Assembly (NCBI GenBank): GCA_963930775.1
Contig: OZ005702.1
Coordinates: 3,100,001 to 3,164,000 of the forward strand
Direction: 5' to 3'
Source: Cliona cf. orientalis
Lineage: Eukaryota; Porifera; Demospongiae; Clionaida; Clionaidae
Length of the DNA stretch: 64,000 nucleotides
The notes under the pieces were generated by a model. The model was not told the origin of the DNA and did not search any database. It saw only the letters and a program-made list of their open reading frames with translations. A program made the position numbers and the translations under genes. The first letter of the stretch is position 1. The number at the start of each line of letters is the position of its first letter. Shown here one piece after another: positions 9,503 to 59,800 of this stretch.

Positions 9503-10236
9503 TTACCCGCGTGCGCGCATGCGCAGCAGGGGGTGGTTTGTCTGTTGTCTGTTGTCTGTTGTCTGTCAGCACAAAAATCGGCAAATCTCAACATTTAGGC
9601 AAAAGTAGGATCAATAAATAGGATAAAATGATGTAAGACAGCGAAAAAACACCTTCTGTCTCATTCTTAACACTAGGCAATACCCAGGGAAGCTACAAAT
9701 CGTGCGAGTATGTCGGACACGCCCACCTAGTACCTCCTAAAGTCTATTGCGCATGCTCGAGCTGCTCTCTATTTCCAGGGAGTCTACTACGCATGCTCGA
9801 ACGGCTCTACAGCATACTTCCAGCTCAAAATTTGTGATCGTGGACCTCAGAAGGGAATGACAAAATTCATGAGTAGCAAGAGATCCAGAGAAGCTACAAA
9901 TCGCCAGCTACTAGGGTAGTAGTAGTCTCGCTAGCCACACCCTTCAATCTCCGAGAGAGGGTGTGGCTGACGAGACTAGGGTAGTAGTACCACATGAAGT
10001 CTATTGCGCATATATACTCGAGCTAATCTAGGGAGTCTACTGTGCATGCTCGATCTGCTCTACAGAATACTTCTAGCGCAAAATTAATGTCATTTGTGAT
10101 CATGGATCTCAGAAGGGAACGAAAAAGTTCATGAGTAGCAAGAGATTAAACTTCAAAGAATAGAGGTCTCTAACAAGAGGCATGGCCATGGGTGATATTG
10201 CCATGGCACGCGGGGTATGTGCTCTATGAGCTCTAG
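9503..10236 (+). mobile_element. Helitron-like element, 734 bp, with nested micro-foldback
   Basis: Starts TTACCCGCGTGCGCGCATGC after A and ends GCTCTATGAGCTCTAG before T, as in the other copies of this family. It contains duplicated internal blocks (CATGCTCGA...CTCTAC at 9735-9810 and 10010-10070) and the 56-bp foldback at 9923-9978. Confidence 0.65.
9923..9978. mobile_element. TAGTCTCG micro-foldback element, 56 bp, 9-bp TSD
   Basis: TAGTCTCG...CGAGACTA with arms pairing GCCACACCC/GGGTGTGGC around a short loop. It is flanked by the perfect duplication GGGTAGTAG at 9914-9922 and 9979-9987. Confidence 0.85.
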
Positions 10237-10408
10237 TATTATATGAGTGATGGCTCGCCCCCTCGATGATTGACATCATCCTAGTACTACTTTATTATAA
10301 TTTTTGTAATCCTGGGCTGTTACAACCCTGTAGCAGGCCTTCAGCTATGGAAGCTGTAAATAATAATATTGATTCTCTGGATCTGTCAGAAAGGTGAAAG
10401 AAATTTGA

Positions 10409-10967
10409 TTACCCCGCGCATGCGCGCGGGGTAAAGTAATCGGTTAACTGTGTCGTCGTCGTTGTGTTGTCGTTAGCAGAAAAATCGCCATATCTCGAGG
10501 TCTAGGCACTTGAGCGACTGGTAAGCACAATGTCAAAAAGGCTCTGTTTCAACTTATTTTGTGACGCTCGTGGACCATATCCCTCAATTCGAAACACACT
10601 GAAGCCCGTTTTTCGTCAAATGTGACTGATTCATTGTGTTTTTCGTCGAATGTGACTGATTCATTGTCAATGAATCAGTCACATTTGACGAAAAACGGGC
10701 TTCAGTGTGTTTCGAATTGAGGGATGTGGTCCACGAGCGTCACAAAGTAAGTTGAAATAGAGCCTTTTTGTTTGCCTTCGTAACCACGCCTATCGAAAGA
10801 GCCTACTCGCACACAGGCCTTGTGCTTTCTGCTCATGCGCATAACAATGAATATTATATAGACTGGTAAAGGTCATCAATAATGTTAATGGCACACGTAC
10901 ACAACAAACGAAAACTTCTATAGATTGCGCAATGTGCGCGCGGGGTATGTGCTCTACAGAACTCTAG
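10409..10967 (+). mobile_element. Helitron-like element, 559 bp, with internal inverted duplication
   Basis: Begins TTACCCCGCGCATGCGCGCG after A and ends GCTCTACAGAACTCTAG before T. At about 10531-10770 a block of roughly 105 bp is present twice in opposite orientation around a short spacer, which accounts for the extra length relative to the 388-bp copy. Confidence 0.7.
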
Positions 10968-11372: not shown

Positions 11373-11433
11373 GATTAATATTAGCAATGGGCCTCAATCG
11401 GAACCACAGGAGACAAACTCGACATCGGCGTAA

Positions 11434-20870: not shown

Positions 20871-20873
20871 TCT

Positions 20874-21696: not shown

Positions 21697-21716
21697 CCTC
21701 ATCTGTAGCTGTGAGC

Positions 21717-22271
21717 TAGCCTCGTCCCCAGGCGCCCCGATCTTTTCAACTGCACGCGAGAAAAGAGGGGGAGCCTGGTAAAACTTATCACGTGCGTGAC
21801 GTCAGGTGGAACCAACTTCCATATATGGCACAACAGCAAGTTGGCCGGCTTGAGGCACAGAATTTCTCACCGTAAGTTCGAGCTTTTCGATCTGAACGGC
21901 TATGAATCAGCAAGCCAGGGCCCTTCAGTCCCTTCGCTGGGTATCAAAAGCCGCGATTTGCATGGTAAACTCGATCGTGCCAACGTCCAAGTCGGTTCCA
22001 CCTGAGCGTGGACACGATTGAGTTACCATGCAAATCGCAGTTTTTTTTACACATAGCGAAGATGCTGAAGCGTCTCCTCTTGCTGATTCATAGCCGATTG
22101 TAACGTACTAATTGTAGAACTCGAACTCTCGGCTTGATCTTGGCCAACTTGCTGTTGTGCCATATATGGAAGTTGGTTCCACCTGACGTCACGCACGTGA
22201 TAAGTTTTACCAGGCTCCCCCTCTTTTCTCGCGTGCAGTTGAAAAGATCGGGGCGCCTGGGGACGAGGCTA
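21717..22271. mobile_element. TAGCCTCG foldback element, 555 bp, 9-bp TSD
   Basis: TAGCCTCGTCCCCAGGCGCC ... GGCGCCTGGGGACGAGGCTA, flanked by GCTGTGAGC at 21708-21716 and 22272-22280. The arms extend inward about 140-200 bp (CTTATCACGTGCGTGACGTC, ACCAACTTCCATATATGGCA), with further pairing at ATTTGCATGGTAA. Largest member of the foldback family. Confidence 0.9.
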
Positions 22272-22574
22272 GCTGTGAGCGAGTCAAATGAACATCACGT
22301 GAACTGGTCTGCGGCCGCCGGTACGGGGGTTGGTGTAAAACCTGGACTGTGGACTCTGGACTGGACTGTGGACTGGACTATGGACTGAGATTTGGACTGG
22401 ATTTTGGACTGACGCGTTAGATTTTGACGACCATTTCCAATCAACCTCACTAGGATCGACTGAACGAAGGGTCGTAAATCTATCACTTCTGCTGGAGCAT
22501 AGGGTTGGAGAGGTGCCTTGGCTAATAGAAATGGAAAACAATAGGCTTACTTTCTCATAAAGTCACGGTGGGAT

Positions 22575-22918
22575 CAAGAAATCAGCATGCTGTGTTATCA
22601 GTAAGCCTGAATTAGTGTTTGTCAGTGCTTCATGAGCCAGACTGCTTGTGTTCAGGCTGCATGCATTTCCCTTCTTTAAGCTATTCTCCGGGATATCATA
22701 ACCTCCTTGACAGCAACACAGAATATCTGCAGCTTGTTTGGTACACAAAAACCAAACAAGCTGCAGATATTCTGTGTTGCTGTCAAGGAGGTTATGATAT
22801 CCCGGAGAATAGCTTAAAGAAGGGAAATGCATGCAGCCTGAACACAAGCAGTCTGGCTCATGAAGCACTGACAAACACTAATTCAGGCTTACTGATAACA
22901 CAGCATGCTGATTTCTTG
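22575..22918. repeat. Perfect hairpin, 168-bp arms, 8-base loop
   Basis: Left arm 22575-22742 and right arm 22751-22918 are reverse complements, with ACACAAAA as loop. Both strands therefore encode the same accidental ORF from each arm. No mismatch was found on reading through. Confidence 0.9.
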
Positions 22919-23279
22919 GTCGTACATAATTTAGCATAAAATTGAAGAAGTTTTCTTGCTGTACTAAGGGAAATTTTTATGCCAATCCCTGCTTGCTGCA
23001 TCAAGGGAAACTTTTATGCCAAGTCTGCCTTGCTGTACAGCAAGGGAGGCCTTTATGCCAGTGATTTTGGCATAAATTACCTCATGTATATGATTTAGCT
23101 TATTCTATTAAAGGGGAAATTTTATGCCAAGGTAACAAGTGTCATAATTAAAGGAGTATCCTCAACCTGGATGTAGGTATGTAGCTATTTGGCATAGTGT
23201 TACTTCGCAATGAAAATGCTTTATGCCAAACCAGCAAGGTCCTTAGGACCCTGGTCCCATGCATAGCTATATAGCTAGT

Positions 23280-27029: not shown

Positions 27030-27856
27030 GCATTTTGTTTGCCTCAGTGTGTGCACGCATAATAATATTATTATTGTGTAGCATCAATATTAAATTTGGA
27101 GATAATTATCTGAATACCAAGGAGAAGGCCGAGTCATAAGAATAAATGCTCATACCTGATTATTACACGCCCGAGTACTATAGCTAGCTACAAATTTGGA
27201 TATTGGCATAAAGCATTTTCATCGTGAAGTAACACTATGATAAAATTTTATGCCAAATAGCTACATACCTATATCCAGGTTGAGGATACTCCTTTAATTA
27301 TGACGGTTATTACCTTGGCATAAAATTTCCCCTTTAATAGAATAAGCTAAATCATATACATGAGGTAATTTTATGCCAATATCACTGGCATAAAGGCCTC
27401 CCTTGCTGTACAGCAAGGCAGACTTGGCATGAATTTTTCCCTTGATGCAGCAAGCAGGGATTGGCATAAAAATCTCCCTTAGTACAGTAAGACAAAAATT
27501 CCTATTTTATGCCATTGTCTGCATGACCCTTTTTTTTGTTTTTTTTATGCAATCTAATAGCAGTGTTTTGATTCATGATTACCAGTGTTGCAACTTCAGT
27601 GTGAATATTTACCATGTGGAATCAAGGTGACAAGATTGAAACGCACTCTGTGTTGTGATACATGTATGTGCTAGTAAGATCCAAAATTTCTGCTCAGGTG
27701 CCACAGCTATAGGCTAGTATGTACGTATGATCAACATGTCAAATGATTTGAGCCCAATATCATTTTAACTAATTCAACAGTCATTTGCATCACAAACTTA
27801 TATTTGAAGACTATAAACATTAGCTGAGGCAGCCCAGAGGTTTGATACTAGTGAAT
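27030..27856. repeat. Inner inverted-repeat arm of the hAT-type element
   Basis: 27190-27515 is the reverse complement (diverged) of 22920-23245: repeated GGCATAAA/TTTATGCC motifs, CTTGCTGTACAGCAAGG and AGGATACTCCTTTAATTATG. No gene. Confidence 0.75.
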
Positions 27857-27905: not shown

Positions 27906-27991
27906 CTAGTGAATCAGATGTATGCTTAATGACAAATACACTGCATGCTTAGTTCTTGATCCCACCGTGACTTCATAAGAAAGTAAGCCTA

Positions 27992-33664: not shown

Positions 33665-34683
33665 ATGCAAGTTAGCATCAACTAAGCTGCTATAGAGCAG
33701 TACACTGTGTCATGATCGCTATAATATGTATCTCGTACTTGTACTATTGTATTACTAGGTCAGCTGGCATTGCAATATACATGATCGATGAGTGTGCCTC
33801 TGTTTGTTGTTGGCGAGTTCACTATCTGTGTGTAGCCATGGCTAGACATAAAGCTTGTAATTCTACAATCAGTATGCAGAACATCTTCGTTAAAGTCACC
33901 TAAAACAATAGATGGTAAGCTTGATATAGAGATATGATTTAATACTCTGGACAGTAAGCTGGTCAATGTTTGCAATGGTACGCTAGGTGACCTGTACAAT
34001 AGTGCTATCTGGATTGGTCTGTTATTTGCTAATAGTATCGTAATACTAATTGCTTCTATGCCATTGGATGCATATCTGCGAGTATTAGTCAGTTGCATAC
34101 ATTCAGGAACACTAATCATAACTCCACCTTTGTTGTCCCCTGATGCTCTGTCACATCGGACAGCTATTTGATTTTTTTGCACTACAGGGGAAGGCTGAGG
34201 TGGAGTTAGCCAGGTTTCACAAAAGCATAGTATACTAGCGTGTTTGAGGTTATCATCACATGCTATGTCAGGCAGTTTAGCAACAATAGATCTTATATTC
34301 AACAATGCAATCATAACATGGTTGTCATGACATTGTAGTTTATGCACAGTCGGTAGCAACTTCGTGTTCAATCTGATCATTTCACTATGCACATCATTAC
34401 TTTTTTTAATGGCAGAGGCACTGAAATTCAAAATATGTAGTCCTTGCAGTGTTTTTACTCGACTGAATGCTACATAAGCTTGCCCAGCATTGAATCTGCC
34501 ACCTTTCATGTCTACAGCTATTTTATCTAGTGTGAGGCCCTGCACATTTTATGTATAGTGGTTGCCCAAGCTAGTGTCAGTGGAAACTGTAATCGTGTAA
34601 TTTCAGAGCCACGTTTGCGCTTTGCACGAAACACCACTTCATGTTTACTCAAAGGCACTGCATCGGGAAAGTTAGCTTGGTAT
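33665..34683 (-). pseudogene. Helentron: end of Pif1 helicase and AP-endonuclease-like domain
   Basis: Upstream segment reads NFPDAVPLSKHEVVFRAKRK and TLAWATTIHKM, then a 2-base shift, then QGLTLDKIAVDMKGGRFNAG and AYVAFSRVKTLQGL, the helicase motif V/VI end. After a linker the endonuclease-like domain follows: VMIALLNIRSIVAKL, ILCFCETWL, RCDRASGDNKGGVMI, SLPSIVLGDFNED and TLIDHVYCNAS. An in-frame TGA comes next, then QVRDTYYSDHDTVYC with the conserved SDH. The domain resembles those of non-LTR retrotransposons and is a hallmark of Helentrons. Its precise role in transposition is not established. Confidence 0.85.
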
Positions 34684-34966
34684 CATAAGGATGCAATATT
34701 GGCAGATTAGACACATTATACGATAATTATAGACTGTAGACTGTCTAAAGTGAATTGTAGATGCTTCTCCAATACTAGACACTTTGTATACATACATTAG
34801 ATGATGTCACATAATATTGTATAAATTCAGTCTTTTAACTATCTGAAGTGTCTACAGTGTCTAAAGTGTCTACAGTTTCCACATTATATGCGCTATATAC
34901 ACACTCTATACAGATAATATATTATGTGCAACATTATACTGTATGTGTATAATGTATATAAAGTGC

Positions 34967-35395: not shown

Positions 35396-35508
35396 TTATA
35401 ATGATAATGAGACCAGTCATTTTCCCTCTAATAATTTTATATGTCATTAAAACGAAAACACTCAACCATTGACACTTTTGGCATTCTATTCAGTAATTGT
35501 ACGTAGTC

Positions 35509-36062
35509 TATACACACCAACTCTATACAGTCTATTGTGAACTGCAGTCTAATGTGTGTATATAGTGAGTCTAATCAATGCAATATTGACACTTTAGACA
35601 CTTTAGACATGGCCTTGCATTACAGATCTAATAATTAAAGTCACCATATTATATCTAGTTTATACACACCAACTTTATACAGTCTATTGTGAACTGCAGT
35701 CTAATGTGTGTATATAGTTAGTCTAATCAATGCAATATTGACATTTTAGACACTTTAGACATGGCCTTATTATAGATCTAATAATTAAAGTCACCATATT
35801 ATATCTAGTTTATACACACCAACTTTATACAGTCTATTGTGAACTGCAGTCTAATGTGTGTATATAGTTAGTCTAATCAATGCAATATTGACATTTTAGA
35901 CACTTTAGACATGGCCTTATTATAGATCTAATAATTAAAGTCACCATATTATATCTAGTTTATACACACCAACTTTATACAGTATATTGTGAACTGCAGT
36001 CTAATGTGTGTATATAGTGAGTCTAATCAGTGCAATATTGACACATTAGACACTTTAGACAT
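35509..36062. repeat. 150-bp tandem repeat, about 3.7 copies
   Basis: TATACACACCAACT starts at 35509, 35661, 35811 and 35961, so the period is 150-152. Units two and three are nearly identical. Each contains GACACTTTAGACATGGCC-like sequence, echoing the GTCTAAA motifs at the element's own ends. Confidence 0.95.
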
Positions 36063-36262
36063 TCTCTGGTAATAACTAATGTTAAGGCCATAATAATATT
36101 GTGTATTGCTTGATAAAAATGTAGTGGTACTTTTGATACTTTACACTTTAGACAATTACACTTTATAGTCTACACTTAATACTAAATAATACCATACTAT
36201 ACACTTACATATAATAGGTATAAAGTATAATATGTCTAAATAGCCAATATTGCACCTTTCTC

Positions 36263-38596
36263 CTTGGTATGGGCTTGTTTGGATTGCTTTAATGCCAACC
36301 TGTTGGTTATCAAACTTGACGAGCATATTGATTACCATACTGTTAGCATTAGTCACAATATGAACAACTTCTCCTCTTGCTCCGTTAACAAGGCCATCTG
36401 ACACATCAATATTAGCTACAAGCATAACACGTGCACCAATAGCTAGCTTGAGGGTCCCATGAAGGCCACCAGTTTCATTTCTATTCTCAGATAGACTTTG
36501 CAGATCAATGTGTGTGGTTTGCCCAGCTATAGCATCACTAGCCTTGATGGTATACTGTTCACATTGTGGGGCCAAGCTGTTCAACATCACTCTGTTTCGG
36601 TCATTAGCATAGTCATTCAATCGGTACACATGCAAAACATGGGTGGATAATTAGCACTATCAGCTGTTATTATCCTCGATTTGAGAACATCAAGGTCCTC
36701 AGGTGTGCAATCATTTGTTCTCACTCGACACAACAGCTCAGCAAAAGTACTATCACCTCTTTGCCTCATGATTTCATCTAGTTCAACCAGTTGGAATTCA
36801 TCTATCCACAGAGAACCTGAACGATACAACTGGGCATAACAGTCACCTACTGTGCTGAATAATGGTGCTTGGGCAACTGGAGGTAACTGATACAAGTCTC
36901 CCACTGCTAATATGCTTACACCACCAAATGTTACATCATCAGACACACCTTTGATTTGCTGTAGCCGTTTGTGGATTTCAAGCAACATATTAGACCCAAC
37001 CATGCTTACTTCATCAATGATAACTAGTGTTAGCTTGGATAGTTTGCTTCTCAAGGTGTTAAGTCTGTCATGGCTAAGGGGTTGAAAGCCAGTGTACTTG
37101 CCACCTCCTAACAGAAATACAGAATGCAAGGTCATACCATTGATATTGAATGCTGCTACACCAGTGGGGGCAGTTAGTAATACAATTACATCATCTGGCT
37201 CTATAGCACCTGATAATCTTAGAAACTTGAGTGTATCAGAATAGATCAATTTAATGACATGGGATTTGCCAACACCACCTGGACCACTGAGGAAGATACG
37301 ATATGGCTCAATTGGTTTGCCTTCTTTTAAAGCTATGATTACTTTTTTGCACCAATTGCGATGAAACGTGACTATTTCTCGCTGCTTGGCATTTAGCCCT
37401 CTGAGTAGTTGCCTATACTGCTCAGGGGAGATCTCTTGCCTGTTAGTAGCACTTTCAAACCGCACATGTAAACTAGCTGTTGTGGTTGATGTCATAAGGT
37501 TAGCATTGTCTCTCAAGTCTTCCTGGGAAACCTCAGTTAGTAGCTCGCTACCTTCTGCTAAAGACTGTGATCTGCTTTCTTCTGTGGAGGGTGCAATGTA
37601 ATTCCATAAATGCTCAGGTGGACCATCTTCATCAATATCTACATCATCAACATCTGTTTGGCTATATTTGCTTTCATTAGCTACCACAGTGGAATGCACA
37701 TGTCTATAATGCTCTTCATAGGTTGAATAGCTACCTTTCAAGTCAGCTTGTTCATTGTACCATGGGTAGTACAGCATTAACTTGGCTCTATACCAGTTAC
37801 TAGGCTCAGCATCTTTGTTATACCGTCTAAACCTTATCACAGCTTCTCGTTTGCGCTTGTTCATTTTACCAAAACCATCAGTCAATTTGATTTGAGTGGA
37901 CGTAGTATCACTTTCTGAGGCTGGTAAAGCATCACATTCACTGTCCTCACTGTGTTGGTAGTTAGTCACATAGGTAGCAGCAAACTCTGCTAAGCACATG
38001 GATTGAATCTGTCTCGGTCTATGCTGATATCTATCAATGAGGCTCTTTTGAAATACATTTGTGTCCTCGTCATCAAGTTGTTCAAGTGAGGTTTTGTCTT
38101 TCAAAACAGCTATTCTCTCACTCTTAGGGTTAGTATTAACAAAGACTACAGATCTGCTCAGCTGTTTCATGGGTAAGGACAATAGCCTATACACTGCCTC
38201 TTGTGCACTCACTTCTCTGTGTGTTAGAAAGGCTGAACCAACTTTTTTGATTTGGCTCTTTAGTTCCTCAGTCCTAGCTTCCGATGCTACATGCTTTAGC
38301 AACACACCCATGGCCCCGTCTGTTTTCATGATATAGGAGGCAACATACATAATGCAGGCATAAGCATTCAGTACATACTGTAAGTCCATATTGGCTTGCC
38401 ATGCTAGCATTACTGGGCCATTGTAGTTGTTTACCATGCATTCACTGGGTTTATGCTTGAGTAGTACAACATTTCCCTTATTGGACACCTCTAAAGCTTC
38501 TGTGTACTCATCAAGTGTAACACTGGCAAGCACTAAGATCTCATCAAGGCTCTTATCAGTGTGACCATCAGCTATAACCTTGTGCACTTTAGCCAA
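36263..38596 (-). pseudogene. Helentron: Pif1-type helicase domain
   Basis: The 659-residue frame at 36617-38596 begins within the Rep region (YVASYIMKTDGAMGVLLKH, Rep motif 3 with two Tyr) and continues into the helicase: EIVTFHRNW, GPGGVGKSHVIKL (motif I), LLTAPTGVAAFNI (Ia), LTLVIIDEVSMVGS (II), SILAVGDLYQLPPV (III) and LDEIMRQRGD. A second frame (36263-36635) carries NDYANDRNRVMLNSL and LHGTLKLAIGARVMLVANID, then GLVNGARGEVVHIV, up to SPYQ where the nested element enters. The two frames join near 36630 with a one-base shift. Motifs needed for ATP hydrolysis are intact. Confidence 0.9.
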
Positions 38597-39151
38597 AACA
38601 GTTTGTGCTTATTTAACCAGATCAGGGTCAGACTGGGGCTCTGCTATCAATGTGTTGGGTGTTGGAGGCTTAGGGAAGCTGAACCTGCAGTGGTTGTGCC
38701 TTTTGCAATAGGAAGAATGTTTGTGCTGTTGCATGAGCTGGACTAATTGTTTCAGTTTGCCTTCTTCACTAGGGATAGCACATGATATGTATTGGTCAAT
38801 AAAAGCACACACATTATCACAATCATCAACATCATACTTTGGAGCATCTTTGACCCATATTACAGTGTGCATGTGGGGAACCTCTGGCCTGAAATTCAAT
38901 TCTTAGCCCATAGTCCACTATTTCTCCCAATGGGTGTGTATTTGATTTCAAAAAGTCATGGAAGAAGGTATTTAGCCTATATTGGAAATGCCTGGCTGCA
39001 GTGACTGGATTACGCTTTAGCCAATTGGACCTGTCTTCAAATGACAGTGCAGCTACCTCCTCATCTGTGTAATGGACACCATATTGCTTAGCTATTGTTT
39101 GGATCATATCTGGCCATTTCAAGTCAGCGGCTGACAAAGTAAAAACTCAGG
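38597..39151 (-). pseudogene. Helentron: HUH Rep domain
   Basis: 38832-39137 reads SAADLKWPDMIQTIAKQYG, then RHFQYRLNTFFHDFLKS and FQARGSPHAH, the two-His nickase motif. Immediately after HAH the frame breaks: the following CACTG has one fewer AC unit than needed, and the next frame (38609-38899) supplies TVIWVKDAPKYDVDDCDNVC and SYCKRHNHCRFSFPKPP. Loss from a short AC run is a simple slippage event. The break falls in the catalytic domain, so this copy cannot make full-length Rep without frameshifting. Confidence 0.85.
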
Positions 39152-39834
39152 GGTATTAAGGCACGGGTGGCCCATAGAAATGCTGATGTTTCATATCTTC
39201 ATAACGCCAAGATGATAAACCTTCACATTTAAGATCTGATAAGAACTCATGGTCCTTAGTGACCATACCCACTTTTAGGGTCATGTGACCTTGTATGGCA
39301 GCTGCAGGGTGAATAATGTCCCTTAAAAAAGACTGCAAAATGAGGATTTGTTCCCATGGAGATCAAGACATGATACTTGCATAGAAATATAGACCTACTT
39401 ACCTACTAATTGTAACTTGCTGTGGAAGTTTAATCATGCTGTCATTAATAAGTTATGGCCAATAATGTTATCGAGTGTGGTGTGCATTAATTAGAAAAAG
39501 TCCCTCTTTCCTTAATTAAACATAATTAATTGATCCACAGCCAGATACAATAATTAGGTGTTAAAGTACATGTGCTCACAAAATTTCATGTCTTGATCTC
39601 TATGGGAACAAATCCTTTTCTTGCAGTCCATACTTTGGCTTCGTTATTGGCCATACAAGGTCACATGACCTCACAAGTGAGTACGGTCATCAAGGATCAT
39701 GAGTTATTACTAAATCTTAAATTTGGCAGATTTATGTTAAGGCGTTTGGAAGATATAATTTTTTTGTATTTTGCTACATTGATTATGGCCAGCCATGCCT
39801 TAATGTTGCTGAGAAACCATGTGGGTGTACCTAA
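39152..39834. mobile_element. hAT-like MITE nested in Helentron Rep, about 683 bp
   Basis: Left end CAGGGGTATTAAGGCACGGG and right end (reverse) CAGCAACATTAAGGCATGGC are inverted repeats, with further pairing at GGTCATGTGACCTTGTATGG and GAACAAATCC. It separates LGTPTWFLS from TLSAADLKWP in the Rep reading frame. The flanking duplication is not preserved perfectly, so the edges are accurate to a few bases. Confidence 0.8.
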
Positions 39835-42321
39835 CTGACGGATCATAGCTAGTAAATCATAAAAAGTATGCTGGTAGTATGGTGGGGAGCCACGAATGTT
39901 TTTCATGAAACGGTAAGCTTTGTCTTTGCGTACACATTGGTTCAATACTGCTTGGTCTTTAGCTTGGGAAGCAGTAAGGTGCCTAGTTGGTTTTTGTCGC
40001 CATACAAAATTATTCCCATCATCCAACGCTTGCTTAGCCTCAACAATATACTGAGCAACAAAGAGGTAGTCTAGATCACAAGCAAATCTGCCATCAACAT
40101 CTAATAGCCTTTGGTTGAAATACTTTCTGTAAGTTAGTTTTCTAGGTCTCTCAGAGCTGAATGTTCCACTACCAAAGCAAAACTTGTCAGGGTTAAACAT
40201 GGCTTCAAAGTTGGGATCTGTCATGATAAACAATGGTCTCTGTCCTTCAGCTGATGCTACAGAAATGATAGCTTCAGGATGCTCTAGGGACATCATGCTG
40301 GCTGTTGGGCCTCCAGTGATTTGTATGGTGTGCTCATCACCTTGCTCAATGGTTGCATCATCTAGGGGATTTTCATTTGTGCTAGCATGGCCTTGTTCTG
40401 GGGGATTACATATGGCTGTATCTTCAGTTGCCACTACAGTACTGTCAATATCCATGCTCATCTGGTCAAGTCCTACATAGTGGTATTGGAGCACAAGGCC
40501 CACATAAACTTCACCTTCACTGTCATACTTTATATAGCTTCTGGGTAGAATGGGAGTCATGGTGAGATTCTGACTACTCAACACATTTATAGTCACATTG
40601 AACATATCACAGATGCCTTGGATTGCTATGTGGTCACCCCAGGCACCATCTTTCAGTCTTTGAACGTACTTTGCCCAGCGTAGCTCCACTTGAAGCTCAT
40701 GGTCAGCTATTGTCTCAATTCGTTCATCTTGGGCGGTGGGAGGCTCTGTGTCAGCATTGTAGGGATCATTTGAGACTACAGGTTGGGATACAAATCTTTT
40801 ATACAAGTTACTGTTGTTTTGTAAGTGGTCTACTACCATTTGCCTCAGTGTGTTTTTGTTGACACTGCATGCTGTAATAGGCTCCAGCTGGTTTGCTATG
40901 CTGCTAAACAGGCAATCACCATCGTAAGGTACTTTATGAATTGCAAACCCATTTCCCTGGCTACTTGTTCAAGCAGATTAAATGCAATAGTGAATACATC
41001 ATCGTCAATGGACAGGCTATAAGGGTGACATTCCATGCCCTGATTATCCTCTTTATCCACAACTTGATTTGAGCTACTGTCACCATTGTCAATACCAGGC
41101 TCATTGTGGGGCTGCTGTGTAGCTAATACAGACTTACTATTCACATTATCAATATCACTATCAAGGTCATTTGTGTCACATTGTTCTACTAAACCACCAA
41201 ATAGGTCTTCATCATTGGATACAGCCTGCTCTAGCCACTGCTCATTAATGTCAATGTCAGCATACAATGGGTTGTTTTGTTTTAGCCACCTTAGTGCAGT
41301 CAAGACTTTCTCAGGGGATATATAGTCATACATGTAGTGTCCTCTGTATGCCAATTTACGCTTCAACTTGAGTGGGATTAGTTCAGTCTCTGAAGGCAAA
41401 CGGGGAAGTACAGTACAAATAGTATCGACCTTGGATGGAACATTCACTGCTGGGCCATGTATGCACCTTTGTTTGCCAGAGGGCAGGGCAACCATTTTCA
41501 TAAAGGGAACACGCAAACATATCAATCGTAGTTCAAGCATGTTCAAGCCAGATAGTTGATTAGGTATTGGACACAGCTGTAACCCATTAGCTTTGGCTTG
41601 TAGTGGCATGTTACCCCTTTTCAATGCTGCATCACATGTTTTGCAGATCCACTGTTTACCATCTGAGCTAATGTAGTTATGTTCAGCACTAAAGACTTGC
41701 ATCAGCAATTCATTGCTAGCTTTGGTGTACTTACTTCCAGTACAAGGAATAACTGTTTGCTTGTACATGAGGCGGTGACAGCATATGCACACAAATTCGG
41801 GACCTTGCTTTACCTTGGAATGAAAATTTCTAATGCATTTCTCAACGGGAACAATTAGTGCTCTTCTTGTGGCCATGCATGCTCGGTTCTGCTCTTGTCT
41901 TTGTGCAGTTTCCATCACTGTTTCTGATTCTCTGGTTTTGGCTTTACATGCACGATTACGCTGTCGTCTTTGTGCAGTTTCTACCATAGTTTCTGATTCT
42001 CTCCTTTTGGTTTTACATGCTCGATCCTGCTGTCGTCTTTGTGCAGTTTCTACCACTGTTTCAGTTTCTCTCCTTTTGGCTTTACATGCTCTATCCTGCT
42101 CTTGCCTAGACAAAGTTTCATCACTGGTTTCCAAGGCTCGCTTTTGTGCTTTTCTAGTGCTATCTTTCACTAGCCTCAGTGCAATTTCATCTGCCGATTC
42201 TCTTGCTTCTCCTAGTGGAATAAACTGGGGGCTTTGTCTTAAATGAATGACCACACTCACATACAGATTTTCTAATAGGTACCCTGGCACCGCACCCTGG
42301 ACACTGCTTGATTGGAGGCAT
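39835..42321 (-). pseudogene. Helentron: zinc ribbon, repeats, conserved N-terminus and OTU-like protease
   Basis: Start MPPIKQCPGCGARVPIRKSV at 42321 gives a CxxC...CxC zinc ribbon. A frame change near 42200 leads into ADEIALRLVKDSTRK and three to four copies of a 25-residue unit (DRACKAKRRETETVVETAQR, 41890-42130). Then comes FVCICCHRLMYKQTVIPC with WICKTCDAAL (Cys-rich pair) and LRLICLRVPFMKMVALPSGK, a conserved Helitron/Helentron N-terminal region. After 40896 the next frame (39835-40839) has GDHIAIQGICDMFNVTINVL and YVGLVLQYHYVGLD, an OTU-like cysteine-protease domain (catalytic His in the last motif), then RKLTYRKYFNQRLLDVDGRF leading to Rep. A small frame problem lies near 40860. Confidence 0.8.
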
Positions 42322-42396: not shown

Positions 42397-44007
42397 TCAG
42401 ACAAAAAAAAAACAAAAACACTTACAGTATAACTCTTGTAGGGTTAGGACACTGTTCTCACCCATCTTTTCAAGGTACTCTGTAACCTGAGCGACGTCCC
42501 ACGTAGTCTCGTATCGAGGTCGTGGGGGGCGTTGATTGAACACTCCTTTGAGCAATCTTGCAACCAACGGATGTTCGCCTACGCTGTGACCATCCACTTT
42601 AGTGTGTACCGAAGAGATGGCCGATCTGTAGGAGTTCAAGGAGCGATACTGGTATCCTTCATCATATACATGAGCGAGAAAGTTAACCACATCGCTTATA
42701 GGTCCATCAATGGGATCTGCACCCCTCTGATGACACCAGCATACCCATTTCCCAAAGAGGGAGTCATAAGATTTTGAGGACTTTGTCCTCCATGATGCCA
42801 ATAGTAATTCTGTGCCTGTGTCCGAAATTTGCTCGTCTTCGTAGTGACGCCTGAGATAGGCCACGCGGCTAGTTGAGGTTCCACTTCTGGTGCCGCTATT
42901 GGTGTTGTTGGCTGTATCAGCCCGCCGGGATGTTTGAGTGTCACAAGGAAGTCTACCAACATCTCCAGGAGAGTTGCGTACCACGCCTGTGTCTTCCACA
43001 CTGGAGCGATCAACACTATGGTTGCTCCTTGAGCTCGTACCTGGGACAGGGTTTTTCCCACCAGGCTCCACGGAGGGTTGGCGTATCCCTTCCCCCCTAG
43101 CTTGTCCCATTGTTGGGAGAACGCATTCAGGGCTTCTGCCTCTGGGTCTGGCCTCCAACTGAAGAAGCGTGGTAGCTGAGTTGTCAGGCGAGATGCGAAC
43201 AGATCCACTGTTAGAGGACCCAATCGCCTGTTTATCTGCCTGAACACCTCTGGGTTCAGTTTCCAGTCTGTTCTGTCCTTCATTATGCGCGATTCCTCGT
43301 CTGCAATCGTGTTCTGTACTCCCGGTAGGTGTTCCGCTATGAGAGATATATCTCTCTGCAGGCACCAGAGCCATAGATTCTTGGTTATGGCTGTCAAGTT
43401 CTGTGACACTGTGCCTCCAAGCTTGTTCACATATGTGACGGCACTCATGTTGTCCATTCTGAGCAGGATCGTCACACTTCTGCGATCCCAAGCAAAACAC
43501 TTGATGGCTGCCAGCGCTTCCAGGCAGTTGATGTGCATGCTGGACTCCGATCTCGACCAAGGTCCCCCCGTCCGGACCCCTTGGGAGGTTGCTCCCCAAC
43601 CCTTTTTTGACGCATCGGTCTCTATGACCACTGAGGGTTTCTCTGTTACTAGAGTCCCGCCATTCCATTGTGAGAGGTGCTCCTCCCACCACTGAAGCTC
43701 CTCCCTCATGTTGGGGGTGACTTCTACTGGCACAGAGTAGTCCTGGGCTCCCGCAGTTAGGGCTCTGCCCAGAGCGGCTTGGAGGCTGCGGTAGAACAGT
43801 GGTGCCACTGGCACTGCCCGTGTGGCTGCATTCAATTTCCCTAGGAATTGGGACAGCTTCCTCGTTGTTATTGAGGCGGAAGTACTCAGCTTTCGGGCCT
43901 CTGCCCTGATTTTTTTCATTTTCTCCGCTGGTAGGCGGAGTTCCTGCTTCGTTGAGTCTACCATGAAACCCAGAAAGTCGATTGATTGTGTCGGCTCTAG
44001 CACACAT
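42397..44007 (-). pseudogene. DIRS tyrosine recombinase, catalytic domain missing
   Basis: A 536-residue open frame whose first half overlaps the RT/RNase H frame and may not be translated. The recombinase-like part begins near residue 400: SWRTKSSKSYDSLFGKWVCW (core-binding domain), DVVNFLAHVYDEGYQYRSLN, SYRSAISSVH, HPLVARLLKGVFNQRPPRPR. It ends NSVLTLQELYCK followed by a T-rich run. The catalytic R...HxxR...Y domain is not present. The last codons coincide with GTAAGTG, a good splice donor, so a missing or spliced second exon is conceivable, but the sequence beyond matches the Helentron rather than a recombinase. Confidence 0.75.
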
Positions 44008-45058
44008 TTCTTATAGCCAATAATGAACCCCAAGTTCTCCAAGAGATAGATTAGGCCCATAGTGTGATCCCTCAGGAGTTCGGGTGTCTCGGCTATGATC
44101 AGCATGTCGTCTATATAGACAATCATTCTCACACCTAGCTCTCTGAGCTGAGCTGCTACTGGCTTCAGAACCTTGGTGAAAACCCAAGGGGCACACGCCA
44201 GGCCAAACGGTAGGCAGTTGAACTTGTAGCATTTGTCCCTGCATATGAACTTGAGGAAATCTCTTCCTCTCTGTGTATCGGAACCATGAAGTAAGCATCC
44301 TTCAGGTCCACTTTCGTCATCCAGTCTCCTTTTCTTAGGAGATCTTTCAATAGATGGATTCCTTCCATCTTGAAGTGCTCTGTATGCACAAACTCGTTGA
44401 GCTTCTTCAAGTTTATCACGGGCCTCTGACCCCCGTCCTTCTTGGGCACTAGAAAGACTTTGGATACGAAGCCCCTCCCCTTCGTCTGACTTTCTTGAAT
44501 CGCGCCCTTTTCCAACATCTCTTGGATTTCTACCTCCAGAAGCGCTTCTGCCTCTTTCGAGAGACATAACTGTCTTGGCTGCTGCCTCTGGCGCGGATCG
44601 GATACAAAGGGGATGCGAAAGCCCCGAACTGTTTCCAAGACCCATTGGTCTTGCGTTATCCGTCTCCAGTTTTCCATGCAGTGCGTTAGTCTGCCTGCTG
44701 GTAAAACCGCTCGCTCCGCGAGTTTCTGAGCCATGGGGACTATACCCCTGGTCTGCAAGTGAGCGACAATCGCCGACGGGCGAGAATATTGGGGCATGAC
44801 TGATATTACTGGATTATTTGCATATGCATACAAGATATTTACAGCAGGTACATCTATCTCTACCGGTACTAGCTCTACTCTGAGAGTCTTTGGCTTCTTT
44901 AGGATTGGCTGTTCTGAGGTTTCTTTCTTGAGAAGTTTTCTTTTCCCCCGCTGTGGCCCCGGTAGTACGGGTGGTATCGCCCGCGGCCTCTGTGACTGTT
45001 GCCGCCCCCGCGGTGATGGCCGTTGCCATAGTATTGACCCGAGGGGCGGCCCTTCCAA
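42696..45058 (-). pseudogene. DIRS reverse transcriptase, RNase H and methyltransferase-like region
   Basis: First frame (44165-45058): FVSKVFLVPKKDGGQRPVIN, KLNEFVHTEHFKMEGI, WMTKVDLKDAYFMVPIHRE, then a one-base break near 44270. Second frame (42696-44645): YKFNCLPFGLACAPWVFTKV, VRMIVYIDDMLI (YIDD catalytic box), FIIGYKKCVLEPTQSIDFLG. RNase H follows with SVVIETDASKKGWGA, INCLEALAAIKCF, LLRMDNMSAVTYVNKLGG and HLPGVQNTIADEESR. Next come LTVDLFASRLTTQLPRFFSW and KGYANPPWSLVGK, the methyltransferase-like region typical of DIRS. Copies RNA to DNA in a tyrosine-recombinase-dependent cycle. The frame break makes it non-functional unless bypassed. Confidence 0.9.
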
Positions 45059-46116
45059 AAAAACGGCTCAGCCGATTTGCTGTTGTTTGATGACTTCCTG
45101 ATGCATCTCATTGCCTCCACGTGCTCCTTCATGGTTTTCTCAAAACCGTCCCCAAACAGCATGGGTGCAACGTTTGCAAATCTCTCTTCGTCCTCCACCA
45201 GAGTAAGGAGATCTTTGTTGAGGTCTTTCAGGGCATTCTTGCGCCTTTCCTTGGCGATGTGCGCCGAGGCGTTAGCGAGCAGGCGGAGTGCTAACTTTGA
45301 CGCCTTCTCAGAGGTGTCATTAGTGAGTTTGCCATTCTTAGCAGACTCTAGAATGTGCACTAGAGGTGCCACCGCGTCCAAAACCAGGGTTTGCATCTTG
45401 GCTAGGGTGGTATCGGCATCCTTCGTCTCTTTCGAGACGCTCCCTTTCACCACGCAGTCCATCTTAGGGCATTTTGTGGCATCCACTTTGGGGACACCCA
45501 CTGTCTTGCGGAGCCCTTGCCTGGCGGAGTTGTTCAACGGTTTGCCAAAGCAAGACTGCAGGAACGACGACGTCTCCGGAGAGACCTCTACTAAGTTGCT
45601 GGCAGTCTCTGACTCCTCGTCATCAGGCCAATGAACGGGTGGCAGATTCAAAGGCTCATCAAGGCGACGATCAGCCCAGTGTTTCGGCACCTGGCTAGAG
45701 TTATCAGTACGACTAGTACTGGCCGAAGAAGAGTTATCAGTACTACTAGTACCGGCAGAGGAAGAGGTATCAGTACGACTAGTACTGGCAGAGGAGGGTG
45801 TGGGTACAGGCGGTACCTCGGTGGAGGTCCCGCTGCCTGTGGCTCCGTCGGTTGACTCAACCTTGGATGCCAACTCGTTTAGCTTCTGGCTAAAGCCCTC
45901 CATCATCGCCATCATCCTCATTTCGAAGGAGGCTCTGCTCGCTTCATCGCTGCCCGAGTTCTCCTCGGTGCGGACGGGATTGTCGTTGTACTGCACAGGT
46001 ACTATGCCGAGTATCTGCTCGGCGGCAGCACGGTCGATCCCAGCGCCGACAAGGATGTCTAGGGCGCCTGCTGAGGATGGTTGAAGGTCAAGATCGATGA
46101 TATCTTCGCTTGCCAT
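44899..46116 (-). CDS. DIRS gag-like protein (405 aa)
   Basis: Intact ORF from MASEDIIDLDLQPSSAGALD. Residues 90-140 form a Ser/Thr-rich segment with repeated SASTSRTDNSSS-type units (a 30-bp minisatellite at 45700-45790). The central region is helical (LALRLLANASAHIAKERRKN, ERFANVAPMLFGDGF). The C-terminus is Gly/Arg/His-rich (GNGHHRGGGNSHRGRGRYH), as in nucleic-acid-binding gag ends. It overlaps the start of the RT frame by about 160 bases. Assigned by position and composition; sequence identity to a named gag was not tested. Confidence 0.75.
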   Translation of the reverse strand: MASEDIIDLDLQPSSAGALDILVGAGIDRAAAEQILGIVPVQYNDNPVRTEENSGSDEASRASFEMRMMAMMEGFSQKLNELASKVESTDGATGSGTSTEVPPVPTPSSASTSRTDTSSSAGTSSTDNSSSASTSRTDNSSQVPKHWADRRLDEPLNLPPVHWPDDEESETASNLVEVSPETSSFLQSCFGKPLNNSARQGLRKTVGVPKVDATKCPKMDCVVKGSVSKETKDADTTLAKMQTLVLDAVAPLVHILESAKNGKLTNDTSEKASKLALRLLANASAHIAKERRKNALKDLNKDLLTLVEDEERFANVAPMLFGDGFEKTMKEHVEAMRCIRKSSNNSKSAEPFFWKGRPSGQYYGNGHHRGGGNSHRGRGRYHPYYRGHSGGKENFSRKKPQNSQS

Positions 46117-48140: not shown

Positions 48141-48374
48141 CAGCATAACTTATCAGAGAAACTAGCACTTAGCTTTTAATGTGTTCATTGGATTTGTATG
48201 TAACTTTGTCTATGATTCTGTGGAGTTTCATGTCTCAGAAGTGTTCTGCAAAGGCTCTGAATTTAGCATTATGACAATACACATGTAGGTTACATCATAG
48301 TTACCTAATAAAGTAAATTGCTACTGGGGATGTAATGAATCCACTCTATTTTGTAGCGTGCAGGTCCATGACAA

Positions 48375-48625: not shown

Positions 48626-49672
48626 GGTGTGTACGATGCATTAAGTCAAGAACACTCCAAGGATAGCATACCTTGAACAAGTCGACATCAATAGGTGTAT
48701 AATAATCAAGAAAAGCAAGCATAGGGATGTATAGTGGTTGTGATTATCTGTTATCCCTACAGATCTTGTTCATGTACTTTTTGGCATTGCCATTCCTACT
48801 TATCCTTCAATTTTATTCACTTGTATGCATTAACTTAAGACAGGTTATGGGCTCTGTTCTGCTTTCTTAATATCACTAGTATGACTGACACAACTGCATA
48901 CACACATACTTAAATATATAAATCACATATATACTTGCATACTGTCTAACTTGCACAAATTACAAATATCACGATTTATATCTGTCATACAGCGCTTCAC
49001 GTATCAGAGTTGGTATCATAACAATATAGCGTACAGATTAGAGATGGCTCTGTGATACTCATATATGGCATTCCAACACTGACAAAATTGGCAAGCTCAA
49101 ATATATGGTCAAACTTGAGTCAGATATATGGTCAAACTCAAATATGTGGTCAAATTGTTGCCTATATATGCTCAAAGCCAAATATATGGTCAAATTTTTA
49201 TATGATCAAACTCAAATACATGATCAAATGAAAGTTATGGTCATTTTTCCATATATGGTCAAACATGCAGCAAATATATGGTCAAAATTTAAGAAAATCC
49301 CCTTACATAATAGTCACGGATATGACGTATCTATTAGTTAATTGGACCGACGTGACGTCAACAGAATCCGCGTTCGCGAATAAAATTCGCGATCGCGCGC
49401 ACAAACGTACACTCACGATCCTTACCTTATGTAGTCTCGTTCACGGACCGGTGTCATGCCGTATAGCGTCCCCCGTAGAATCGCGTCCGGGGGACGTAAA
49501 ATATACGTCCGGGGGGACGCCATCAATTAACGATATCCGTCCCACGCGACGGAATAACGTCCGCCCGCCGCCGCGAGTGCCCTAATGAAAAAGGCGCCAA
49601 AGGGATAGGCACTAATGGAGAGGAAGATGGTGGAGAGAATTAAGACAGGCACTGATGGGAAGTAGTCTGGGT

Positions 49673-49718
49673 GCCCAGCCCCTTCCTCCCTCTTATGAAG
49701 GGGCTGGCACCCAGACTA
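49673..49718. repeat. Small hairpin TAGTCTGGGTGCC...GGCACCCAGACTA
   Basis: Arms pair over about 20 bases around a short loop. It resembles the TAGTCTCG foldbacks, but the 9 bases on each side (GATGGGAAG, TAGATGGAA) are not a clean duplication. Confidence 0.55.
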
Positions 49719-50412
49719 TAGATGGAAGCAAACTGCTGCAATGTGGAGGTATAGCAAAGGCAGATCTATATTCATTTTATTGATAATAAGCAGAGCTCAA
49801 GCACTTTACTGAGAGTTGGAGCCAGAGCTATAGGTCTATAATTATTGTCCGAGTTAGAAGGGTCCTTGCCAGGCTTAGGAATAGGCTGAAGAATGCAATC
49901 TCTAACTAAGAGTCTAAGAGAATTAGGCACATAGCCATGTCTCAGCATAGCAGTGAAGAAATTCCTTTAGCACAGGAGATGCACAGATGAAATGATCAGA
50001 CAAAAGATTTGTGCCCTCTGATTTGCCGTAGCTAGCTACTGTCAAGACCATGCACACTCTTGTTACGAGTCCGGCAGCCGCGAGCTGCGAAGGGGACGAC
50101 ATTCTACGCTGTGGGACGCAGTTCAATGGTGAATCGCGTCCCACCGGACAATATTCGATGGCGACATGCGTCCCCCCGGACGTAATTTGGATGGGACGTT
50201 TACCGTTAGGACACCGGCCCCCTTTAGGGCGGAGTCTGGGGACTTGATCATTTCGCTCCGCTCCTACGTGGGAGGGCTGGTGCGCGAGACTAGGTACGTA
50301 CAATCGGACATTGTATTGTATGGTATTAAAGCAGTATGGTAAGCATGAATGAAACTACTAGGTAGCTATTCATGTACTAAATATATCCTTCTGCACCTGG
50401 TGTGTCTTACCT

Positions 50413-50524
50413 TAGTCTCGAAACCAGACCGCTCCCACCGCAGCGTTCAGTTCTTTCAGGATGAACGCGCGTTCATCCAGAAAGAACTGAACGCTGCGGT
50501 GGGAGCGATCTGGTTTCGAGACTA
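50413..50524. mobile_element. TAGTCTCG foldback, 112 bp, 9-bp TSD
   Basis: TAGTCTCGAAACCAGACCGC ... near-perfect complement ... CGAGACTA, centred on CGCGCG. Flanked by GTCTTACCT at 50404-50412 and 50525-50533. Only about one mismatch between arms. Confidence 0.9.
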
Positions 50525-50537
50525 GTCTTACCTGGGC

Positions 50538-50630
50538 TAGCTTTATCCCCAGGCCCTCTCTCGATCTCCCAGTATTTATTTAATATGAAAGATAGAGAGA
50601 GGGCCTGGGGACACGGCTAGCTCAGCTGAA
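50538..50630. repeat. Foldback with CCCCAGGCCCTCTCT arms
   Basis: GCTAGCTTTATCCCCAGGCC ... GGCCTGGGGACACGGCTAGC around a short AT-rich loop. Related to the TAGCCTCGTCCCCAGGC elements but without a clear duplication. Confidence 0.6.
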
Positions 50631-51149
50631 TTTCATTCATACTTACCTTACAATGTCCGATTGTACCTAGTCCCGCGCGCCAGCCCTACGATGGAGGATG
50701 GAGGGATTGTAGCGCGGAGCGAGATGGCCAAGTCCCCAGACTCCGCCCCAGAGGGGGCGGGTCCGTCCGTGAACGAGACTACATAGCGGGTAAAGGATCG
50801 TTTGTGCGCGCGATCGCTAATTTTATTCGCGAACGTGGATTCTGTTGACGTCACGTCGGTCCAATTAACTAATAGATACGTCATATCCGTGACTATTATG
50901 TAAGGGGATTTTCTTAAATTTTGACCATATATTTGCTGCATGTTTGACCATATATGGGGGAAATGACCATAACTTTCGTTTGACCATTTATTTGAGTTTG
51001 AACATATAAAATTTGACCATATATTTGGCTTTGAGCATATATAGGCAACAATTTGACCACATATTTGAGTTTGACCATATATCTGACTCAAGTTTGACCA
51101 TATATTTGAGCTTGCCAATTTTGTCAGTGTTGGAATGCCATACTCATAT

Positions 51150-56100: not shown

Positions 56101-56834
56101 TGGGCTGTACATTATAGCCATGGAGGGAGTGCAGCTTGTTACAACTGGTACAGTAGCTGGTATCCAGTTTTCAGAGAATAGATATCCATGTTTGACATGT
56201 TTCAACAGAACAAAATTTTATAGGCGGCAAGGGATGATCAGGAAGATGGTTGATGATTTAAAGCTGATGCGAAATTCCGGTATATCTGCTGGTTCCCGCA
56301 ATATGGAGGATCACTGTACATGCACAAAGTGACCGCATACTTTGACCCTGTATCTCGAGTTCGGATAGCTAGATTGAGGTTGGACTGAATAAAATCAGTT
56401 GATGGTAGCTGCAGCCAAGGTTTATGTTTAGCGGCAACAAGTTTTTATGAGTGTTAATTATACAGAATTTTCAGTGGTAGCTATATATGAAATACATGCG
56501 TGTATTATACCATCTGCTTGAAATTTCAGTGCTTGTTACAACCAAGATATAATATATATATGGGCCCGGACATGTTTATACATGTAATATGTAAACGAAT
56601 GTATAGCCCTTTTTGGCTTGTTGCATAATATAGGAGGGTACTACCGTAGCATCCCAGGCAAGCGCCCATTCCTGATGTACCGCATTTCAAACTGTCAACG
56701 TAGCAACTTATCTGGGACACTATATATGGTATTACACACTGGATCAAACTTTTACTATAATGACATTATGTTTGTTTGTATAACATACATGCAGTTGATC
56801 CCAGAATTGTGAATATCCCAGACATCATGATGCT
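56101..56834. other. Unassigned; short Cys-containing ORF 56120-56332 (plus)
   Basis: MEGVQLVTTGTVAGIQFSEN, then NRYPCLTCFNRTKF and HCTCTK. Not recognised. It lies on the opposite strand just downstream of the membrane-protein gene. Could be a chance ORF. Confidence 0.2.
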
Positions 56835-59800
56835 TTATATGCTGTCAATCTCTTTCTCATGTGTGCTGCAGCTGGGCTGTATCGGTCTTTCCAAATATAT
56901 ATTGTTCTCATTCAGGAATTTGATCAGTTGGTCCTTATAGTCTGGTGAGACATTTTCAAAGGGAAGTAGATACATACCACTAGAAGCCTGAAGCCAAATA
57001 TCACTGCATTCACCAGTTTTGTCAACATACACTTTCTTCACGTGACCAAACATCACTTGGAGCTCTTTGTGCTGGAATTGTGAAGGTATATAGAGTACCA
57101 GGAGTACAGTACTCAACATGTGAGTTAGGATAACTTTATACATACAGTAAATTACGAATATTTTGTTGTCAAAATATTTTCGGACAGCCTGGCTTGTGCA
57201 AAAACTAAATGCACAAAAATACATGTCCAGTATTAACAATAATGCGGTAGGGTCGTTTGTCCGAAAATTATTTCATACAAAAAAATATTTTTTAGATACG
57301 AAACATTCGCAATTGATGGTAGCTTACAAAATGCTGTGATGGTATTATGCAATAATCATTATTACATGTATATATAAGGTACAGACTACGATAGTGTAGT
57401 GGGTAAGTATCCACGGACACTCTACCTTAGCTCTTACCCTGCATGGATGCTTTCTCGGTGTCTATATAGGGACGTACCATAATATTATGCCAAACTGCAT
57501 GCAAAGTTAGTGGGAGGAGTCAACATAAAAACATAATTGAGATGGCACCTCAATCTCAATAATTTTTACCACTAGCTACTAGCTAGTGCACTTTAGACAC
57601 AATTAAGGTTCTCAATTAACTGCACTCTTGGTAGTAGCTATAGCACGGTGTTCAGTAGCCTCGTCCCCAGGCCCTTTGAGGAGGAGGAGAAAGGGCCTGG
57701 TACACATGACTGTTTGCGCATGCTCCAGATACTATAGTTACTGTATACTTCCTAGTATACTTGCCCTTTGACCATTATTCCTCGCGAGGAGAGAATGGCA
57801 GGATTAGACGGATTGATTTTCAAGCGAGATTTCGAGACAGCTGTTGCCATGTTGATTGGTGGTGGGATTTGTACTTGGAACAGTGATGGTTCGCATTTAG
57901 CACGCGTGCTATTGCAAAGGTCAGGAGGTCATTCCGTATTCTTTACATGTGTTGGACCGTTTCACTATTATACACGTGGTAAGGATTCATGTATAAATTT
58001 TACGTTGTTTTTACGGAAATTTGACGCATGCGTAAACAGTGTGTACCAGGCCCTTTCTCCTCCTCCTCCTCAAAGGGCCTGGAGACAAGGCTAGGTGTTC
58101 AGTGGAACATGTCCCTCAATATGAGTGCTCTTAGGAGTGCATGCAAAAATTACTTGGGCACTTGCCATACAATGTACATGCCTGTAAGGATCCGTGCTTA
58201 CCTGCCAGACCATACCAATACTTCTTGGCATAACATGATGATCAATCTCCAATTGAAGGACTCAGATCTAGCTAAAAGATCTGGCAAACACTAGAGAATC
58301 AGGAGTACTGAATGGCGAAACCCAAGTGGGCTGAAGGCCACAATCTTGAAGCATGTGGCCTCTACTATCAAGGATTTGTCAGCAACAGTTACTAAGAAGA
58401 AGTGCTAACACAACATCGTTCGTATACGCAGATCAAGAATAACTGCCATTGATTCAATCTGTTTTATGAGGTCCTCATGAACCACAAGATGGCTACATGT
58501 ATACATCTGAAAAGGGACTATTTTCTAGATTGGCCCGAAGTGCTAGATTTATTTCTTGAAGATATAGCCTTTCACTCATGGAGCCAAATTGCAATATGCT
58601 CGTTAATCAACCTCTGTATGGTCTAGTCAACATTAGCTACAATCCACATGCTGATGATATAATACACCCACTAAGGAAGTGATCTAGTTTTCGAGACTAC
58701 ACTCTTCCCTTAAGCCGTACAGCTCTCTTGACATAATACATATGTAAGTGGGAAAATGAGCAATTAGGTTAATATACATTTGTCCATGTATACAGTTGTA
58801 TTTCCCATCATATTCTATACTTACGAACTTAGAAATCTAATTATTCTTCGTACATGTCTTATAATTGATGGCAATGCACCATACATTCACATTACAGTGG
58901 TTCCCCAGACGGTCACCAAAATTGCCGTTGGCGGTTATCTAGTCATGTTGATACTGTAGCCAAATTGGCGAAAATGGGAGGAGTGTAGCTAGTACTAGTG
59001 CTCATTAACTTGTTCATACTAGGGGGTCTGGGGGCATGCTCCCCTAACTGCAAAGACTGCTTCTCGTGGCTTCTGAGACCGGTCTTATCAGTGATATTTA
59101 CCCTTTTAATACACTATGTTTCCTCCCATGCAGAGCGCGAAGCTGAGAATATTTTGTGTTAAAAAGGAACTAAAAAGTGCCTATTTGGACAGTTTCACCA
59201 TTCAAACTTCTTACATGTATATGCACATGTATTGCGTATATGGTTTGTGGCTATTCTCAAGGGGGGCAGCCAGCTTCGAAGGGGGGGGCGAGTGCCCCCT
59301 CCCGCCCCCCTAAATGAACCCTGCAACTGCTGGCATATAATCTGTAATGTGGTGGCGGCCAGCGCAAGGATATCTTTTATCATAGACTTGACAATACATA
59401 CAGACTGACAAAACGACACGAAACGCAGCGCTTAAAAACAAATGCTCAGAATCCACACAAAACACAATACATACTGCACATGTGCACACAAATCACATGA
59501 TTAACGTAAGATACTACACAATCAACCCTTATAGCTTTGCCCCTTTGAATAGCTAATCCAATATTGTATACCTTATACTTGAGAGTTCCAGCAATTTTGA
59601 GGTTCTTGAGTTGAGATGTGTTGAGTGGCTCAGTAGACTTGAAGTTATGTAGGACAAAGTGAGCCTCAACATGTTCATCTCCAGGCACAAGGTAAACCTG
59701 AGGATTATCCCAGTACTCAATATCTGCGCTTTCAGCTGTATGGATTATAAAATGATTAAAATTTCTAGCCCACGTACACTAAATATCCATTACAAGTGGA

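Follow-up and report, generated by a model that had tools for sequence, protein, structure and literature searches.

The window analysed here, a stretch of 64,000 nucleotides from the genome of the sponge Cliona cf. orientalis (C14:3100001-3164000), contains five short hairpin elements, E1 to E5, and each of them is a very small non-autonomous DNA transposon that was truly inserted. Our work supports with high probability the idea that these hairpins are non-autonomous miniatures, of the miniature inverted-repeat transposable element (MITE) or foldback type, of a large family of AcademH-like DNA transposons that encode a helicase. All five have TAGTCTCG or TAGCCTCG at one end and the reverse complement at the other, with one change in the right end of E5. 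The five elements, their TAG(T/C)CTCG-type ends and their exact 9-bp target duplications had been proposed in an earlier reading of the DNA (the sequence-only reading), and on re-checking every coordinate and every duplication was exact:

9914-9922, unstranded: left 9-bp target duplication of E1, GGGTAGTAG, by sequence check
9923-9978, unstranded: E1, 56-bp hairpin element with the ends TAGTCTCG and CGAGACTA; single-strand DNA fold z = -7.0
9979-9987, unstranded: right 9-bp target duplication of E1
21708-21716, unstranded: left 9-bp target duplication of E2, GCTGTGAGC
21717-22271, unstranded: E2, foldback element of 555 bp, whose outer 112 bp recur as the inverted repeat of an 18.4-kb helicase/DUF6589 element
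22272-22280, unstranded: right 9-bp target duplication of E2
27848-27856, unstranded: left 9-bp target duplication of E3, CTAGTGAAT; single copy in the paralogous empty site L041
27857-27905, unstranded: E3, 49-bp hairpin element; fold z = -9.2
27906-27914, unstranded: right 9-bp target duplication of E3
50404-50412, unstranded: left 9-bp target duplication of E4, GTCTTACCT
50413-50524, unstranded: E4, 112-bp near-perfect palindrome of two 56-nt arms, 96% complementary and spacer-free; fold z = -21
50525-50533, unstranded: right 9-bp target duplication of E4
57647-57655, unstranded: left 9-bp target duplication of E5, GGTGTTCAG
57656-58093, unstranded: E5, 438-bp element; its right end, CAAGGCTA, deviates by one base
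58094-58102, unstranded: right 9-bp target duplication of E5

We also scanned the window for pairs of ends that lie within 12 kb of each other, deviate from TAGYCTCG by no more than two mismatches each and are flanked by an exact 9-bp repeat. This returned E1 to E5 and one weak 7.7-kb pair; among 20 windows simulated with a second-order Markov model, 18 contained no such pair, one contained one and another contained two. No Rfam family matched in the window. The interiors had initially been described as unrelated palindromes: the centres do differ, but E2 and E5 have their first 17 bp in common. Similarly, the sizes of 49 to 555 bp are correct for the elements of the window, whereas genome-wide the sizes extend much further, the smallest element with a duplication having 26 bp and the largest element 18.4 kb. 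E4 lies, together with a worn 82-bp relative (50538-50619), in a degraded 1350-bp element (49432-50781) with TAGTCTCGTTCACGGAC ends and with flanks that lack matching 9 bp, and this degraded element is in turn enclosed by a 1709-bp inverted repeat with other ends (49249-50957).

The ends seen in the window are common in the whole assembly of 216.8 Mb. The pattern TAGYCTCG N(20-50) CGAGRCTA, which spans 36-66 bp, was found 912 times as compared to 5 times for a reversed control pattern, and TAGYCTCG N(0-19) CGAGRCTA, which spans 16-35 bp, 216 times as compared to once for the control; both figures count pairs of ends, a few of which overlap (C1:6158131, for example, is in both). Among the first 50 listed elements of 36-66 bp, the flanks agreed in 9/9 positions in 22 cases, in 8/9 in five and in 7/9 in three. 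With shuffled flanks, where each shuffle leaves on average about one element paired with its own flank, the corresponding values were 0.50, 0.10 and 0.07 per 50, and the duplications are thus well above the shuffled level, as the sequence-only reading had proposed to check. For the shorter pairs (16-35 bp), the test covered 29 of 50 listed elements: 13 had a 9/9 match, two an 8/9 match and one a 7/9 match (0.48, 0.07 and 0.17, respectively, with shuffled flanks), and exact 10-bp repeats were present in two more. Therefore, 48 of the 79 elements in the two short sets bear the mark of insertion. For elements of all sizes (n = 102), we observed an exact 9-bp duplication in 54 cases, a 9-bp duplication with one mismatch in nine and an exact 10-bp duplication in three, i. 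e. 66 of the 102 carry a duplication. Among the 102 are three elements chosen for having a repeat (L016:1691, L004:2911 and L019:2149), a 32-bp insertion that is counted in three copies, and pairs that were duplicated along with the DNA around them (L059/L060 and two in L073). The 54 exact duplications comprise 53 distinct 9-mers, in which G is slightly favoured at the first base and, by symmetry, C at the last.

Empty sites support this picture. Modelled empty sites were compared with the loci read and with the window for paralogous matches. For E3, a paralogous empty site (L041) has the target once, and the same was observed for a 58-bp element (L080; empty site at 48143-48304 of the window), a 40-bp element (L014; empty site L058) and a 416-bp element (L090; empty site L020), each with a single copy of the target. 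The agreement was less exact for a 36-bp (L081) and a 53-bp element (L068), and the comparison was ambiguous for L006 and the 27-bp element L129. E3 resides in a host repeat, and 17 of 19 other listed places of this repeat that span both sides have, within 10 bases, the length of the empty site; this figure is derived from coordinates with L041 alone being read, it assumes an expected loss of 58 bp (element plus duplication), and it allows for a 10-bp insertion seen in L041. Since paralogous empty sites exist, insertion is shown, and the initial proposal of a mobile family with shared ends, 9-bp duplications, foldback form and tiny members has been borne out in this respect.

The origin of the hairpins is indicated by E2. 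When used as a query, it also matched two places 18.4 kb apart, as a left and a right end, and the DNA between them turned out to be a large element (G000:C1:35884435-35902889, L054) bounded by 112-bp inverted repeats as in E2. Its exons encode a DEAD helicase (8.3e-10) and a DUF6589 protein (2e-10, both with Pfam profiles), with further exons matching Helicase_C (2.1e-6) and DUF6589 (2e-15), and the two genes are convergent. A weak RFX-like DNA-binding match (E = 0.05) is located near the left end (plus strand, element coordinates 432-809) and might correspond to an end-binding protein. The arrangement is not confined to this element: 122 DUF6589 matches fell into 102 places in the genome (102 of 338 candidates scored) and 108 matches to the helicase exon into 107 places (150 of 178 candidates scored, with matches as weak as E = 8e-4 counted), and a helicase was present within 6 kb at 56 of the 102 DUF6589 places with 0.6 expected. 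All 56 pairs are convergent, with match starts 1.5-3.8 kb apart. Moreover, in a second module (on C4), whose helicase is 66% identical to that of the 18.4-kb element, the site of the terminus was predicted from the 18.4-kb element before 551 bases were read there: An exact TAGCCTCG end was found at a distance of 555 bp outward from the helicase match; over its first 66 bp, this end has 88% identity with that of the 18.4-kb element (pairwise E = 3e-19). No DUF6589 match was among those listed within the window. An alignment of eight DUF6589 relatives revealed 20 near-invariant residues, including E242, D281, E285 and H286 of L101, and the search for a relative in the PDB at E <= 1 gave none.

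AcademH transposons are reportedly treated by Kojima in 2020 (Mob DNA 11:15). The helicase and the duplications of 9-10 bp match the published description of this group, and it is for this reason that we assign the family to it: PMC10045372 gives target duplications of 9 or 10 bp for AcademH and of 3 or 4 bp for AcademX and links this difference to the helicase and the nuclease, and AcademH is named among the sources of helicase domains in PMC10799480. In the sponge, 66 of 102 elements (one-mismatch cases included) have duplications of 9 or 10 bp, with 8 bp in the 18.4-kb element itself, and the helicase is encoded by this large element; the 56 convergent DUF6589/helicase pairs fit as well. 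In contrast, the swarm of 16-66-bp derivatives has no counterpart in what the accessible text of these two papers says of AcademH. The hairpins also have the properties of MITEs and foldback elements: they are short, non-autonomous, with no evident coding capacity, flanked by inverted repeats and target duplications, and present in high copy number. Unlike ordinary MITEs, which measure about 100-800 bp, the present elements reach down to 26-50 bp and then consist of barely anything but two abutting ends. The designation is kept at "AcademH-like", the features compared being the helicase and the duplication length. In the literature searched, we found no description of the present family, and four strings from its terminal inverted repeats had no match in the papers searched.

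Several observations weigh against this assignment. The flanks of the 18.4-kb element share 8 identical bp only; the repeat would be 9 bp if one T of a TT had been lost at the left junction. The same element contains an exon resembling Transposase_21 (CACTA-like; minus strand, element coordinates ~3621-6399) with a score of 1.6e-6, just under Pfam's cut-off; it could stem from an insertion nested in the element, or else be a further transposase candidate. The module on C4 is the sole one whose predicted terminus was read, and this at one end. At the 10 best DUF6589 loci, neither an exact TAGYCTCG end nor an end pair was present within 1.5 kb on each side, a few unpaired octamers with one-base variation being all that was found; this is expected only if the ends of these loci lie further out, and those of the known 18.4-kb element do lie more than 1.5 kb out. 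Pfam labels DUF6589 as "of unknown function", and our literature search brought up nothing relevant on this domain or its link with transposons. Finally, 36 of the 102 elements, including the 413-bp element L092, have no recognisable duplication.

Several of the hairpins belong to families of copies. For E2, there are at least 26 near-full copies including E2 itself, with 87-100% identity (40 of 142 candidates scored), and exact 9-bp duplications were present in all eight copies examined (L001-L008). Two elements of 362 and 416 bp carry the 112-bp arms of E2 around a different interior, and in a 1049-bp element the 555-bp form is interrupted by inserted DNA. Each of these three is flanked by a 9-bp duplication. 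E5 is represented by at least 30 near-full copies, itself included, with 72-100% identity (40 of 808 candidates scored). E3 has eight dispersed copies including itself on five contigs, which carry no more than three mismatches and are much alike in their asymmetric loop, and none of the other seven was among the listed places of its host repeat (40 of 390 candidates scored). Throughout, the outer 15-17 bp are constant among the elements and the centres are variable. This fits the earlier suggestion that new palindromes are built on shared ends, but a new mechanism is not needed: internal deletion of longer hairpins would account for shared ends and differing centres.

How far the smallest members are themselves mobile is a separate question. 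The 49-bp form represented by E3 is probably mobile. Some elements of only 26-35 bp do carry duplications, and the 50 listed elements of 16-35 bp are unevenly distributed: 12 have 25-27 bp, two have 28-31 bp and 31 have 32-35 bp, which scales genome-wide to about 43 elements of 26-30 bp (10 of 50 listed) as compared to about 138 of 31-35 bp (32 of 50). Such a step would follow if two binding sites were the minimum, but in-place deletion might produce it too. We give an even chance to the possibility that the insertions are real but that nearly all members below 70 bp are dead remnants, which lost their centres in place after insertion by deletion at the hairpin or at microhomologies; this is compatible with an AcademH-like origin. 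The centres are unique in most of the 52 short elements compared, which fits shrinkage in place and also counts against mobile miniatures. An exact 26-mer has three copies only, and the 27-bp form in L113 and L071 lies in the same surroundings. A 32-bp palindrome has three copies with the same flanks, which represent one insertion copied along with a host repeat; we therefore rejected the recurrence of this palindrome as a proof of mobility. Moreover, several centres resemble short-homology joins, although the overlaps are inflated by a hand-typed arm library with one mismatch allowed. On the other hand, the 49-bp form has eight dispersed copies that are closely similar in their asymmetric loop, a 64-bp form is present at two places with different duplications, two copies of the 26-mer carry duplications that differ from one another (8/9 and 10/10) with no clear one at its third copy, and the steep rise between 26-30 and 31-35 bp is what a functional lower size limit might give. 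The dispersal of the 49-bp form and the different duplications of the 64-bp form argue for mobility of some of the deleted forms. It is tempting to speculate that the AcademH-type machinery of this genome can mobilise little more than two abutting ends of about 16 bp each, which would make these the smallest known mobile DNA elements, but we propose this only tentatively: For a size of 49 bp the evidence is fair, for 26-35 bp mobility is possible, and the drop below 31 bp would then reflect a physical limit imposed by two binding sites for the transposase.

The members of 32-33 bp could also be excision footprints, generated by a cut about 16 nt inside each end and a repair that leaves the two stubs. 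For the P element, excision repair leaves end stubs between the duplications. The size distribution, with 21 of the 50 listed 16-35-bp elements falling at its maximum of 32-33 bp and only two at 28-31 bp, would agree with this idea, as would several members that are perfect 16+16 palindromes. However, other members of 31-35 bp are lopsided (e. g. about 22+10), pairs of 36-66 bp are equally frequent per bp of length (~29 vs ~28), and the copies of the exact 32-bp palindrome stem from a single event. We regard footprints as an improbable source of these elements.

The sequence-only reading had attributed the elements to mobilisation by Mutator. Tm1 is reportedly a Mutator-like element (MULE) with foldback form and 9-bp duplications, and in these respects it resembles the hairpins. 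MULEs generate target duplications of 9-11 bp, and the present duplications are of such a length, which is not specific to MULEs. The genome does contain 58 matches to MULE domains. Yet, no inward-facing exact TAGYCTCG pair was present around any of the 30 matches inspected out of these 58, with 1.5 kb on each side (longer elements would be missed), and no MULE domain lies between the present ends in this sample. Instead, these ends are found on two helicase-encoding elements, the 18.4-kb element and the one on C4, i. e. on helicase/DUF6589 modules. Cross-mobilisation of the hairpins by Mutator elements is thus unsupported and very unlikely, and the search for a MULE transposase gene with the same 8-mer ends, proposed as a check, found none in this sample. 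Palindromes formed by chance or in place without insertion can be dismissed: The elements are strongly palindromic, and template switching can create palindromes, but the ends are common genome-wide, 66 of 102 elements have duplications of 9 or 10 bp, and an origin in place is refuted because empty sites were found.

The window contains further repeats. A separate 350-bp foldback at 22572-22921, with 171-nt arms that are 99% complementary, lacks TAGYCTCG ends. On the minus strand, a Helitron-like element with a PIF1 helicase, Helitron_like_N, DUF6570 and an endonuclease domain is located at ~33760-42290, and a retroelement with a reverse transcriptase and a Dam-methylase match, which we take to be DIRS-like, at ~42397-46116.

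Taken together with the AcademH-like assignment, the data suggest a simple scheme. The DUF6589 protein would be the transposase and, together with the helicase, would recognise each end by approximately its outermost 16 bp; the ends would then be joined to target DNA whose strands are cut 9 bp apart. Long hairpins may lose their centres by internal deletion, leaving the same ends around different and often palindromic centres. Some of these deleted forms would then move as such, with the 49-bp form of E3 as the best case, and others probably shrank in place.

The family is far larger than first noted, and its members below 50 bp are the unusual part. The derivatives of a single transposon, marked by target duplications, form a size series between 18.4 kb and about 26 bp, and this makes the minimum of DNA required by a transposase testable; the series also allows one to ask whether the centre of a palindrome is lost before or after insertion. 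DUF6589 is now linked with a helicase as its partner and with transposon ends of defined sequence, and as judged from these sequences it is a candidate transposase. The TAGYCTCG-type ends provide a handle for recognising such elements elsewhere.

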